DNA of 6,063 nucleotides from Candidatus Omnitrophota bacterium (GTDB taxonomy: Bacteria; Omnitrophota; Gorgyraeia; Duberdicusellales; 4484-171), in assembly GCA_014728785.1 (NCBI GenBank), contig WJKZ01000025.1, forward strand, positions 1-6,063, read 5' to 3'. Made by a program: the position numbers and the translations under genes. Positions 1,769 to 6,063 of this stretch are shown piece by piece. Positions within the stretch are counted from its first letter, which is position 1. Each line of letters begins with the position of its first letter. The notes beneath the pieces are model-generated. The model was not told the origin of the DNA. It saw nothing but the letters and a program-made list of their open reading frames with translations, and did not search any database.

Positions 1769-2977
1769 ATGAAAATTGTTCCTGTAAGAACAGAGAAGAA
1801 AAAAGAATTTTTAGAACTTCTTCTTTCTCTGGGTGTCAGTAAAGAGGGGGCAAAGATACTCCTTCCGAAAGGCTTAAATTCGGCTTTCAAGATAGAAGAT
1901 ATAAAATCCCGGGAAGCTAATATCATAAAACAACATCTTCTTTCTTTGGGGAGTGACGCAGGCATAGAGCGGAAAGCTTTAGTCAAGGATGTGTTGACTT
2001 CCATGGTAATTTTTGGCAATTTGAGTCAGTTAAATAAGTTGTGCGAGAAGCTTAAGGGGCAGCCTTTCGGCTTAAGGGAAGTCGCCGGGAAGCTAAAAAC
2101 CTGCCTGCAAAATAAAGCCAGAGAAGAGTTTGTCTTGGAGGCCAGAGATAAGATTTTAAGAATAAAAAAATGCGTAATTTGCGGTATAATAAATACCACA
2201 CCGGATTCTTTTTCCGGTGATGGTTTATTGACAGACAGAGAAAGATTAGAAGAAAAAGATTTGCTTAACAGAGCCGAATCTATGATTAAGGCCGGAGCTA
2301 AAATAATCGATATCGGAGGAGAATCAACCCGGCCCTTTTCTAAGAAAATAGACGAAAAAGAAGAAAAAAGGAGAGTCATTCCGGCCCTGAGGATTTTAAG
2401 AAAAAAATTCCCCCGGGTTGTTTTGTCCGTAGATACTTATAAGTATCCTGTAGCCAGAGCAGCGGTAAATGAGGGAGTGGATATGATTAACGACATAACT
2501 GCTCTTAAAGGTTCCTCTAAAATGGCCGATTTGGTAGAACGTTTCGGTTTGGGATGCGTGCTTATGCACATGAAGGGTACTCCCCGGAATATGCAAAAGA
2601 ACCCTTCTTACCGTGATGTAGTTTCAGAATTGGTTGATTTTTTTGAATCAAGGCTTGCGTATTGTCAGAGTAAACGGATAGACAGAAAAAAAATTATGGT
2701 TGATCCGGGTATAGGTTTTGGAAAAAGATTTAAAGATAACACCGAAATAATCAAAAACCTGGATGCCTTGCGTATATTCGGATTGCCTGTTTTTATAGGT
2801 ATGTCACGCAAGTCTTTTATAGGAGAAATACTTAAAAATCCGGCGGAAGACAGGTTGACCGGTTCCTTAGCCGCTTGCGCTGTTGCCCTGGCCAGAGGCG
2901 CAAATGTTTTAAGGGTCCATGATGTAAAAGAAAGCAGTGAGTTTATAAAAGTTTTTCTTCAAATATTAAATAGCTGA
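1769..2977 (+). CDS. folP: Dihydropteroate synthase with N-terminal extension
   Basis: Condenses 6-hydroxymethyl-dihydropterin diphosphate with p-aminobenzoate to give dihydropteroate, in the cytosolic folate pathway (the sulfonamide target). The catalytic TIM barrel covers about residues 135-402. Visible motifs are GIINTTPDSF (139-148), DIGGESTRP (181-189), the DTYK strand (222-225), NDI (241-243), MHMKGTP (266-272), VDPGIGFGK (311-319), GMSRKSF (344-350) and RVHDV (382-386), so all main substrate loops are present. Classical enzymes have about 270-280 residues. The extra ~130 N-terminal residues carry an ANIIKQHLLSLG stretch that resembles an extension I recall in some clostridial and deep-branching homologues; its role is unknown to me. 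An in-frame TGA at 1748 rules out a longer protein. ATG 1769 is the first usable start, with GAGGT at 1749-1753 as a rather distant ribosome site (15 nt). It lies 31 nt after ftsH and shares one base with cdaA. Confidence 0.95.
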   Translation: MKIVPVRTEKKKEFLELLLSLGVSKEGAKILLPKGLNSAFKIEDIKSREANIIKQHLLSLGSDAGIERKALVKDVLTSMVIFGNLSQLNKLCEKLKGQPFGLREVAGKLKTCLQNKAREEFVLEARDKILRIKKCVICGIINTTPDSFSGDGLLTDRERLEEKDLLNRAESMIKAGAKIIDIGGESTRPFSKKIDEKEEKRRVIPALRILRKKFPRVVLSVDTYKYPVARAAVNEGVDMINDITALKGSSKMADLVERFGLGCVLMHMKGTPRNMQKNPSYRDVVSELVDFFESRLAYCQSKRIDRKKIMVDPGIGFGKRFKDNTEIIKNLDALRIFGLPVFIGMSRKSFIGEILKNPAEDRLTGSLAACAVALARGANVLRVHDVKESSEFIKVFLQILNS

Positions 2978-3732
2978 TGGATTTAGTAAGATTATTAAAC
3001 TGGAAGGTTATTCTGGAGATATTAATCCTTTGGATAGTTATCTACCGTATCTTTCTCTTTCTGAAAGGTACCAAGGCAGTATACCTGCTTAGAGGAATCA
3101 TCATTCTTGTGATATCATTACTTCTTTTTCAGATGTTCGGGTTACCGGTTCTCACCCGTATACTTACTTACCTTTTTGCTTTTTTTCTGATACTGATAGT
3201 TATTATTTTTCAGCCCGAGCTAAGAGAAGGTCTTACTCGCCTGGGCCAGAGGCACATTTTTCACATAGAGCTGAAAAAAGAAGATATTGAAAAAAGTCTT
3301 AGAGAAATAGTATCTGGCGTGGGCGTTTTGTCCCGGAAGAAAATTGGAGCACTTATAGCGATAAAAAGAGAGATGGGGCTTAAAAAATTTATTGAGAGCG
3401 GGTTGATAGTAAATGCGGAGCTAAGCTCAGAATTGCTCCAGAATATTTTTTATCCTTCCGCGCCTTTGCATGACGGAGGTGTGATAGTGGAAGGTACCAA
3501 GATTGTGGCTACTTCCTGTCTTTTCCCTCTGAGCGATAATCCCGGTCTCGGTAGAACGCTGGGGATGAGGCACCGGGCTGCCGTAGGGCTTTCCGAAAAC
3601 ACCGATGCGCTAGTAATAATAGTTTCGGAAGAGAATGGTTTTATATCTTTAGCCATAAACGGCCAGCTGACCCGCAACCTTACCCCTAATGATTTATTTA
3701 CTATTTTAAAGGGGCAGTTGACGAAACCTTAG
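2977..3732 (+). CDS. cdaA: Membrane diadenylate cyclase CdaA (DisA_N domain)
   Basis: Makes cyclic di-AMP from two ATP molecules. This messenger controls potassium and osmolyte transport and cell-wall homeostasis in many bacteria. Residues about 8-29, 34-55 and 60-78 form three hydrophobic helices, the CdaA-type anchor. The cytosolic cyclase domain follows, with GALIAIKRE (124-132), the signature LHDGG (164-168), and MRHRAAVGLSE (197-207) containing the RHR nucleotide-binding motif, then SEENG (217-221). Both active-site motifs are intact; the third DGG position is Ala (DGA) in Bacillus. At 251 residues it is slightly shorter than the usual ~270. ATG 2977 overlaps the folP stop as TGATG and has no good Shine-Dalgarno sequence, so translation is probably coupled to folP. 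The next gene encodes a YbbR/CdaR-like anchor, the expected partner in shortened form. The normal third member, glmM, is absent from this position. Confidence 0.96.
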   Translation: MDLVRLLNWKVILEILILWIVIYRIFLFLKGTKAVYLLRGIIILVISLLLFQMFGLPVLTRILTYLFAFFLILIVIIFQPELREGLTRLGQRHIFHIELKKEDIEKSLREIVSGVGVLSRKKIGALIAIKREMGLKKFIESGLIVNAELSSELLQNIFYPSAPLHDGGVIVEGTKIVATSCLFPLSDNPGLGRTLGMRHRAAVGLSENTDALVIIVSEENGFISLAINGQLTRNLTPNDLFTILKGQLTKP

Positions 3733-3741: not shown

Positions 3742-3879
3742 ATGTTAAGGTTTTTAAAAAAAATAAACATAAAAAAAGCTATTACTTACAACTTCTGGTT
3801 GAAGCTTATATCTTTGATTATTGCCATTATTACCTGGGTTTATGTAAGCGGTGAGATAACCGAAGGTATAAGGATATAA
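3742..3879 (+). CDS. 45-residue membrane microprotein, CdaR/YbbR N-terminal anchor only
   Basis: This short frame fills the gap between cdaA and pdxJ and encodes 45 residues. A basic start (KKINIKK) is followed by a single membrane helix at about residues 18-36, with NFWLKLISLIIAI and then TWVYVSGE. The pattern N-x-x-LKL-x-SL-x-x-A-x-x-x-W-x-YV is the hallmark of the N-terminal anchor of YbbR-family proteins. One of these, CdaR, is encoded beside CdaA in Firmicutes and modulates its activity. Family members usually continue with several extracytoplasmic YbbR repeats (about 300-400 residues in all). Here the frame stops right after the anchor, and only 13 nt separate it from pdxJ, so the repeats are absent rather than frameshifted. 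By homology the N-terminus should face the cytosol, with a tail of about ten residues outside. It may be a functional minimal CdaA partner, or a remnant kept for coupling or RNA reasons. The YbbR relation rests on recognised motif and context, not on a search. Confidence 0.72.
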   Translation: MLRFLKKINIKKAITYNFWLKLISLIIAIITWVYVSGEITEGIRI

Positions 3880-3886
3880 AGGAGAT
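3878..3886 (+). promoter_or_regulatory. Strong Shine-Dalgarno of pdxJ
   Basis: AAAGGAGAT is nearly complementary to the 16S rRNA 3' end and lies 6 nt before ATG 3893 (AGGAG core 8 nt away). It is the best ribosome site in the window and overlaps the stop codon of the microprotein gene (3877-3879). It fixes the pdxJ start and should give translation independent of the upstream genes. Confidence 0.8.
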
Positions 3887-3892
3887 CCGGAT

Positions 3893-4606
3893 ATGAAGTT
3901 AGGAGTGAATGTTGACCATACTGCTACCTTGAGGGAATCCCGGGGAACCAACTATCCCGATCCGGTCGTTGCCGCAATGCTTGCAGAGTACGCCGGATGT
4001 GATTCGGTTGTTGTTCATTTGAGAGAAGACAGGCGTCACATAAAAGAAAGAGATGTTTTTCTGCTGAAAGAATCAGTAGGCCTTCCTCTTAATCTCGAGA
4101 TGTCTACGAATCGGGATATTGTTGATTTTGCGTTAATGGTTAAACCCAACCAGGCTACGCTGGTTCCCGAGAGACGCAGAGAAGTTACTACCGAAGGCGG
4201 TTTAGATGTTGTGAAGAATTATAAAAAAATAGAAAGAGTTGTAAAAAAGCTTAAAAGTTCCCAGATAAGAGTTAGTTTGTTCATTGACCCTTTAATAAAG
4301 CAGATAAAGGCAGCCGGAAAAATAGGGGCCGATAGTGTAGAAATAAATACCGGCAGTTTCGCCGAAGCAAAGACCTCCGCCAAAAAGAAAAGAGAGGTGG
4401 AAAAGATAAAAAAGGCGGTCAGTTTTGCCGTCAAAAAAGGTTTTTTTGTTGCGGCCGGACACGGCTTGGATTTTGAGAATGTGTTGCCAATAGCCCGGAT
4501 AAAGGGGATAGAAGAGCTGAATATAGGACATTCGATAATTTGTCGTTCTGTTTTTGTCGGTATAGTATCGGCAGTCGAGGAGATGGTATCTCTTATTAAA
4601 AGATAA
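3893..4606 (+). CDS. pdxJ: Pyridoxine 5'-phosphate synthase
   Basis: Closes the pyridine ring of vitamin B6 by condensing 3-amino-1-hydroxyacetone 1-phosphate with 1-deoxyxylulose 5-phosphate, the last ring-forming step of the DXP-dependent route. The 237 residues match the family length. Visible motifs are LGVNVDHTATLRESRGT (3-19), VHLREDRRHI (41-50), LNLEMS (66-71), LVPERRREVTTEGGLDV (90-106), VSLFID (127-132), AGHGL (188-192) and ELNIGH (208-213). His42, Glu69 and His190 align with the catalytic His45, Glu72 and His193 of the E. coli enzyme. The usual E-[IL]-HTG segment reads EINTG (150-154), a His-to-Asn change near the phosphate-binding side of the barrel. The start is set by the strong ribosome site just upstream. 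The gene sits 13 nt after the microprotein frame and 20 nt before acpS; the pdxJ-acpS pair is widely conserved. Confidence 0.97.
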   Translation: MKLGVNVDHTATLRESRGTNYPDPVVAAMLAEYAGCDSVVVHLREDRRHIKERDVFLLKESVGLPLNLEMSTNRDIVDFALMVKPNQATLVPERRREVTTEGGLDVVKNYKKIERVVKKLKSSQIRVSLFIDPLIKQIKAAGKIGADSVEINTGSFAEAKTSAKKKREVEKIKKAVSFAVKKGFFVAAGHGLDFENVLPIARIKGIEELNIGHSIICRSVFVGIVSAVEEMVSLIKR

Positions 4607-5805: not shown

Positions 5806-5881
5806 GCCCAGGTAGCTCAATCGGCAGAGCAGGGGTTTTGTAAACCTCAGGTTGGAGGTTCGATTCCTCTCCTGGGCTCCA
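5806..5881 (+). tRNA. tRNA-Thr (anticodon UGU), CCA encoded
   Basis: A full cloverleaf can be drawn. The acceptor stem GCCCAGG (5806-5812) pairs perfectly with CCTGGGC (5871-5877). The D stem is GCTC (5815-5818) with GAGC (5827-5830). The anticodon stem GGGGT/ACCTC (5832-5836/5844-5848) has one G-T pair. The loop TTTGTAA carries TGT at 5839-5841, which reads ACA (Thr), with wobble to ACG possible. The T arm is GGAGG-TTCGATT-CCTCT (5854-5870). The discriminator is T5878 and CCA is genome-encoded at 5879-5881. G1-C72 and C2-G71, the known bacterial ThrRS identity pairs, are present. It lies directly behind nnrD and is probably released from the operon transcript by RNase P. Confidence 0.97.
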
Positions 5882-5996: not shown

Positions 5997-6032
5997 GGGT
6001 AGGTTCCCGAGTGGCCAAAGGGGACAGACTGT
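5997..6032 (+). tRNA. tRNA-Tyr 5' half, interrupted in the anticodon
   Basis: GGGTAGG (5997-6003) forms a 5' acceptor strand, TT follows, then a D arm CCC-GAGTGGCCAAA-GGG (6006-6022). The anticodon-stem strand ACAGA (6024-6028) and the loop start CTGT (6029-6032) come next. This is characteristic of bacterial tRNA-Tyr, whose anticodon loop normally continues CTGTAAA with anticodon GTA. Here G34 and U35 are present, but the expected AAATCTGT is replaced by a GC-rich palindrome that runs to the window end. The 3' half (long variable arm, T arm, acceptor 3' strand) is not visible. Its place behind tRNA-Thr(UGU) fits the common Thr-Tyr-Gly-Thr cluster. It could be an interrupted gene, an inactivated copy, or an intact gene whose assembly ends wrongly. 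Confidence 0.75.
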
Positions 6033-6063
6033 TCCGCCGAAGGCGGATCCGCCTTCAGCGGAA
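6032..6063 (+). repeat. 32-nt near-perfect palindrome at the window end
   Basis: The left arm TTCCGCCGAAGGCGG (6032-6046) and right arm CCGCCTTCAGCGGAA (6049-6063) pair at 14 of 15 positions, with one C-A mismatch and a two-base centre (AT). The middle contains GGCGGATCCGCC, a perfect 12-nt palindrome. Its GC content is far above the flanking spacer. It looks like a dispersed REP-like palindromic unit, but no second copy lies in this window. No T-tract is visible, so I do not call a terminator. The first T may belong to the tRNA or to the repeat. Confidence 0.75.

Follow-up and report, generated by a model that had tools for sequence, protein, structure and literature searches.

A conserved microprotein gene corresponding to the membrane anchor of CdaR follows cdaA in Omnitrophota

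The protein CdaR (YbbR) of the Bacillota, the regulator of the cyclase CdaA, which synthesizes the bacterial signal c-di-AMP, is described in print as having extracytoplasmic YbbR domains, and in the Firmicutes it meets CdaA through transmembrane segments, according to two papers (PMC10243994, PMC6368335). The first of these reports that some streptococci have large CdaA-CdaR fusion proteins (PMC10243994). The mode by which CdaR regulates CdaA is called unclear in a further paper (PMC8573169). The literature searched, mostly without subscription papers, provided no paper combining YbbR with Omnitrophota, and its accessible text gave no description of an anchor-only CdaR. The available portions of PMC8316131, PMC12974146 and PMC13289029 mention ordinary CdaR only, and a term search of PMC10066038 found neither c-di-AMP nor YbbR.

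We have analyzed a stretch of 6,063 nucleotides of Omnitrophota DNA, referred to as the window, in which the genes lie in the order ftsH, folP, cdaA, a frame of 45 codons, pdxJ, acpS and nnrD (Table 1). The CdaA of the window is 78% identical to that of a contig named 'Candidatus Omnitrophota bacterium', its top named match, and it is canonical, with the membrane domain (PF19293), the DAC domain (PF02457) and the RHR motif all present. Residues 165-168 of this protein (3469-3480) read HDGG rather than HDGA, the form of the motif described in the accessible part of PMC12974146, and the G at this position is nearly invariant across 16 Omnitrophota CdaA proteins. Some other features of the window were observed in passing. 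FolP (1769-2977) has approximately 137 residues before its pterin-binding domain, which spans residues 138-384 of 402. A tRNA-Thr gene (tgt) lies downstream of the operon at 5806-5881, and a near-perfect palindrome of 28 bases occupies 6034-6061 at the contig end. By eye the palindrome sits within what resembles the beginning of a tRNA gene, near 5999, where ARAGORN reports no tRNA, and it has no second copy in its own genome when up to two mismatches are allowed.

Table 1. Coordinates of the features in and around the slot after cdaA in the window
Feature	Position	Strand	Basis
cdaA, membrane diadenylate cyclase, presumed partner	2977..3732	+	TIGR00159 6.2e-69; PF02457 2.7e-39; PF19293 3.1e-05
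AGG, candidate ribosome site (weak) of the microprotein; overlaps the cdaA stop codon	3731..3733	+	sequence
Anchor-only CdaR microprotein, 45 aa + stop	3742..3879	+	ORF, homologs, slot conservation, profile match to YbbR N-terminus, pN/pS
Predicted transmembrane helix and flanks, residues 17-38	3790..3855	+	face K21, S24, L25, A28, W32, nearby Y34
AAAGGAG, pdxJ ribosome site; overlaps the microprotein stop	3878..3884	+	sequence
pdxJ, downstream neighbor marking the slot	3893..4606	+	PF03740 5.6e-93

The 45-codon frame begins with an ATG that lies nine bases beyond the cdaA stop on the same strand, and encodes the 45-aa sequence MLRFLKKINIKKAITYNFWLKLISLIIAIITWVYVSGEITEGIRI. It ends with a TAA at 3877-3879 that runs into the ribosome site preceding the pdxJ ATG at 3893. 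A sequence-only reading of this DNA had remarked upon the 45 codons, the AGG before the ATG and the interlocking of the stop with the pdxJ ribosome site, and all are found in the sequence as it described them. It had also stated that the YbbR repeats are absent, and this is borne out. Only 13 bases lie between the stop and pdxJ, and the YbbR repeat family PF07949 has no match at E ≤ 10 in the window's own genome (an assembly that is 68.6% complete), so that no YbbR repeat can follow the frame. Nor did PF07949 match the microprotein itself at E ≤ 1 or, at E ≤ 0.1, any member of a set of 36 short forms, and no Pfam or NCBIfam family matched the microprotein above its cut-off. A search of database proteins returned 12 further matches of 43-51 aa, with E values from 6e-13 to 9e-6. 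All of them except P0013 have a C-terminal tail of the type GEITxGIxI, and one carries the source name 'YbbR domain-containing protein'.

When the profile of the 36 short forms was compared by hhalign with that of 10 one-repeat YbbR proteins, 34 columns aligned with a probability of 98.5 and E = 2e-15. Judged from these profiles, the short anchor and the N-terminus of the one-repeat proteins are homologous. The one-repeat proteins come from the same class of Omnitrophota and are like the microprotein in their slot and anchor, differing in their length of 134-172 aa and in the presence of one YbbR-like domain; PF07949 detects eight of the ten in the 58-genome set. Within the predicted helix the conserved positions are K21 (106 of 107 short forms), serine or alanine at 24 (all 107), L25 (102), A28 (104) and W32 (105), with Y34 (104) nearby. 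The helical moment of conservation was compared with that of shuffled positions, giving p = 0.005 for 105 short forms, 0.012 for 24 one-repeat proteins and 0.006 for a set from named contigs (54 rows, four of them short and the majority long CdaR proteins). The Elusimicrobiota alone gave a weaker moment, with p = 0.058 for 13 rows. Small residues occupy positions 24 and 28 in 92-100% of the rows of each of the four sets. On these alignments a one-sided conserved helix face is common to the short forms and the long CdaR proteins. The charge on the N side of the helix is above that on the C side in 76 of the 107 short forms and below it in 10, and a more positive N side fits an N-in helix.

The microprotein thus resembles the CdaR of Bacillota in its slot straight after cdaA, its N-terminal anchor, its small residues at 24 and 28 and its conserved face. 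It differs in having just 45 aa, no repeat and about eight residues past the helix, where the slot in Bacillota contigs mostly holds long CdaR proteins of about 310-515 aa, and in that no glmM adjoins it in the window. Since the downstream position and the homologous N-terminal anchor are both found and the PF07949 domain is not, we regard it as an anchor-only variant of CdaR rather than as a YbbR-domain protein. It probably works like the membrane part of CdaR.

We have examined how far the slot is conserved in 58 genomes, 55 of which (the window's own counted) contain a CdaA match. An anchor frame occupies the slot in every one of the 52 canonical loci whose sequence extends beyond cdaA (numbered from L001, the window, to L052), comprising 42 anchor-only frames of 27-60 aa and 10 one-repeat YbbR proteins of 134-154 aa. 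The window's own family contributes 32 loci, all short (39-51 aa), and the sister family five, again all short (37-38 aa). Fifteen further families with one genome each divide into five with short forms (27-60 aa) and ten with one-repeat proteins (134-154 aa). The sequence-only reading had held that a full-length ybbR in relatives would mark the frame as a decaying remnant; such genes were looked for, and instead all 37 loci read in the window's family and order, its own locus counted, proved to be anchor-only, with 37-51 aa.

Six loci stand outside the 52. L053 ends inside cdaA, and L054-L058 are divergent cyclase genes. The divergent cyclase is the sole one found in G032 and G049, and a second copy in G020, G025 and G053. 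In L054 (G025:C2), L056 (G032:C198), L057 (G020:C135) and L055 (G049:C54) the DAC domain is followed in-frame by an anchor-like segment and YbbR-like sequence. The open frames of these four are 408-513 aa in length, except for L055 at a contig end, which is cut at 356. PF07949 is above its cut-off in L054 and L056 only and below it in two others, and both G025 and G020 have an anchor-only locus besides. Within the own family PF07949 had no match over its cut-off apart from the divergent cyclases of G025 and G032, with several weaker matches below. YbbR frames of 487-502 aa in G082, G107, G130, G153, G214, G307, G313 and G317 are alike by length alone.

Across the class, the anchor profile matched 300 of 384 sampled genomes (E ≤ 0.01) and canonical CdaA matched 307 (E ≤ 1e-60). 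An anchor match is present in 294 of the 307 genomes with canonical CdaA, compared with 6 of the 77 without; the two lists were matched by eye, and 300 less 6 agrees with 307 less 13. The 13 genomes with CdaA only include G033, where a contig end cuts the sequence, and the six with the anchor only include G017, in which cdaA is at a contig edge. Eighty further loci, drawn from anchor matches and therefore biased towards presence of the anchor, comprise 66 short forms, 13 one-repeat proteins (142-172 aa) and one fusion. Excluding the fused L088, and L129 for which a start codon was not found, there are 107 short frames of 27-74 aa. They include the 36-aa gene of L108 (G311), where an open frame of 140 aa extends upstream; L160 likewise has a short frame, of 40 aa. 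The start site lies at the end of cdaA or within it in 62 of the 107, with a four-base overlap in 42 of these. pdxJ comes next in 102 of the 107. Distances to pdxJ range from an overlap to 235 bases. The gene after the anchor-only frame is glmM, not pdxJ, in family f25 (L059, L060, L061), and miaA in L039.

The slot is similarly filled in a second phylum. Among 16 genomes of the phylum of contig L216 ('Elusimicrobia bacterium'), its own included, all 15 that bear CdaA have an anchor frame of 26-32 aa after cdaA, some of these frames starting with TTG. pdxJ is next in 14 of the 15 loci, and in L228 it was not found in the available DNA after the anchor frame. Elsewhere, no anchor frame was found within the first 700 bases after cdaA in L188 and L203 (both Gemmatimonadota), L163, L204 and some others.

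The substitution pattern in the frame is not neutral; a neutral one would, according to the sequence-only reading, have marked decay. Pooled over 17 close pairs, pN/pS is 0.25 (pN 0.142, pS 0.575), with a bootstrap range over pairs of 0.17-0.32, and cdaA gives 0.15 in the same 17 pairs. The shifted forward frames of the same DNA give 0.90 and 1.53, with stop codons left out. Between the window and L003 alone there are 10 nonsynonymous and 23 synonymous changes in the short frame. The microprotein frame is under purifying selection. A frame arising by chance is ruled out by the protein homologs, the conservation of the slot and the value of pN/pS taken together.

We have also asked how the short form arose. 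In a sample of the phylum, 107 of 285 genomes have a PF07949 match (E ≤ 0.001). In the other Omnitrophota classes the frames picked out by PF07949 match are mostly of about 310-380 aa with one to three matched repeats, and in the named Omnitrophota contigs L143 and L195 the slot after cdaA holds a repeat protein of 339 and 312 aa, respectively. On a careful CdaA tree of 59 rows rooted on Bacillota, which includes 29 short Omnitrophota rows from the loci read together with L146, the short form needs six changes, at least three of them forced by starred branches. A quick tree of 142 rows needs nine changes, with at least five forced. Holding the short rows as one clade was rejected (AU p = 0.0006, in a test run after the tree had been seen). 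The multi-repeat rows lie beside the large short clade in the quick tree, with weak support (82), and outside the class in the careful tree. Sister loci may differ in form. L050 (49 aa) retains the anchor and stalk of its sister L064 (149 aa) and ends ahead of the repeat; another such pair is L118 (53 aa) with L117 (142 aa). The CdaA tree thus rejects a single origin of the short form, and it is therefore most likely that the repeats were lost several times while the anchor was retained. Taking the direction of change from the outgroups, the ancestor would have had YbbR repeats.

We consider, with a probability of roughly 0.77, that the frame represents a gene that is conserved and kept by purifying selection, that its product is a homolog of the CdaR anchor without YbbR repeats, and that this is likely to be an in-membrane partner of CdaA. 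The partnership is suggested by the slot, the co-occurrence with CdaA, the shared helix face, the starts at or within the end of cdaA, the published membrane contact and a natural fusion. In the fusion (L088, identical to L140, JAMWCK010000012.1), which comes from a single MAG, CdaA and the anchor lie in one frame of 300 aa with pdxJ directly after. It is comparable to the streptococcal CdaA-CdaR fusions in having anchor and cyclase in one chain, although those join CdaA to CdaR whereas L088 adds the anchor alone. A search for further CdaA-anchor fusions recovered just this one. The microprotein helix would insert with its N-terminus inside and its C-terminus outside, and a face formed by the small-xxx-small residues 24 and 28 together with K21 and W32 may pack against the membrane domain of CdaA. 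Such packing could help to set how the cyclase assembles or how active it is, with no outside domain involved. The proposal of the sequence-only reading, a minimal CdaA partner acting through the membrane, fits the findings.

The structural model and the coupling analysis add no support for such a contact. An AlphaFold model of a read-through chain of CdaA and the microprotein (300 aa) places a helix at 273-299, corresponding to microprotein residues 18-44. The helix has moderate confidence, with block means of 70-76, a last block of 55 and a pTM of 0.64, as read from the confidence values of a run whose alignment covered the anchor in two rows only. That alignment was built without the short anchors because a first version had put them on the N-terminus of CdaA. 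Mean-field coupling across 196 CdaA-anchor pairs (effective number 173) gave a top inter-protein score of 1.38, within the range of 20 shuffles (1.14-1.67), and the membrane region of CdaA was not enriched, with 5 of the top 20 compared with 6.5 expected. The anchor profile matched no solved structure chain at E ≤ 10, and Bacillus CdaR matched four chains, none spanning the anchor. No solved CdaA-CdaR structure was found; the only long CdaA match is 9g69, which according to the accessible part of its paper is the CdaA-DAC of L. lactis with GlmM (PMC12637823).

Three other explanations have been weighed. The best of them, which we nevertheless think unlikely, is that a membrane microprotein has drifted to another partner, leaving a link to CdaA that is historical only. 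This would agree with the frequency of pdxJ as the next gene and with the absence of a CdaA signal in the coupling analysis, but presence of the anchor tracks canonical CdaA and its conserved face is the same as that in the long CdaR proteins. PdxJ is a soluble enzyme, and among the loci read there is one natural fusion to CdaA and none to PdxJ. Rather less probable is a leader, in which translation and not the product matters, coupling ribosomes from cdaA to pdxJ. While the overlap of the microprotein stop with the pdxJ ribosome site and the four-base overlaps with the cdaA stop are what a leader might show, the amino acids are under selection with their conservation on one helix face, the distance to pdxJ is variable, and the anchor is retained where glmM or miaA comes next. 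Finally, it is highly improbable that the frame is what is left, without function, of a full-length ybbR in decay. Its lack of any repeat would agree with this, as would the forms with one or several repeats in other lineages, which suggest earlier repeats. However, the short form is present in all 37 loci read in the same family and order, its C-terminal tail recurs in much of the family, it arises again on at least three forced branches of the CdaA tree, and the slot conservation and low pN/pS lead us to reject decay of a full-length gene.

Returning to the microprotein as an in-membrane partner of CdaA, the sequence-only reading had further argued that the anchor and not the repeats makes the contact with the cyclase. 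That inference is already known from the Firmicutes, and what is new is a natural form stripped down to the anchor. In a wider view, to which we give an even chance, a detachable transmembrane helix belonging to the c-di-AMP cyclase would form the core of CdaR, and this subunit of 26-50 residues would be one that CdaA cannot easily lose. The YbbR repeats would be an optional outside sensor in some lineages, and the Omnitrophota and Elusimicrobiota would use the subunit alone. If this is true, the anchor subunit is among the smallest conserved signaling partners. In the sources consulted, the conserved gene of 26-50 aa mostly has no name or is labeled 'hypothetical'. Evolution appears to have truncated CdaR repeatedly, from multi-repeat to one-repeat to none, keeping the anchor and its face. 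The anchor-only form offers a minimal partner in which a specific face can be mutated, along with natural pairs of long and short forms for comparison. The microprotein would thereby serve as an experiment of nature on which portion of CdaR is important.
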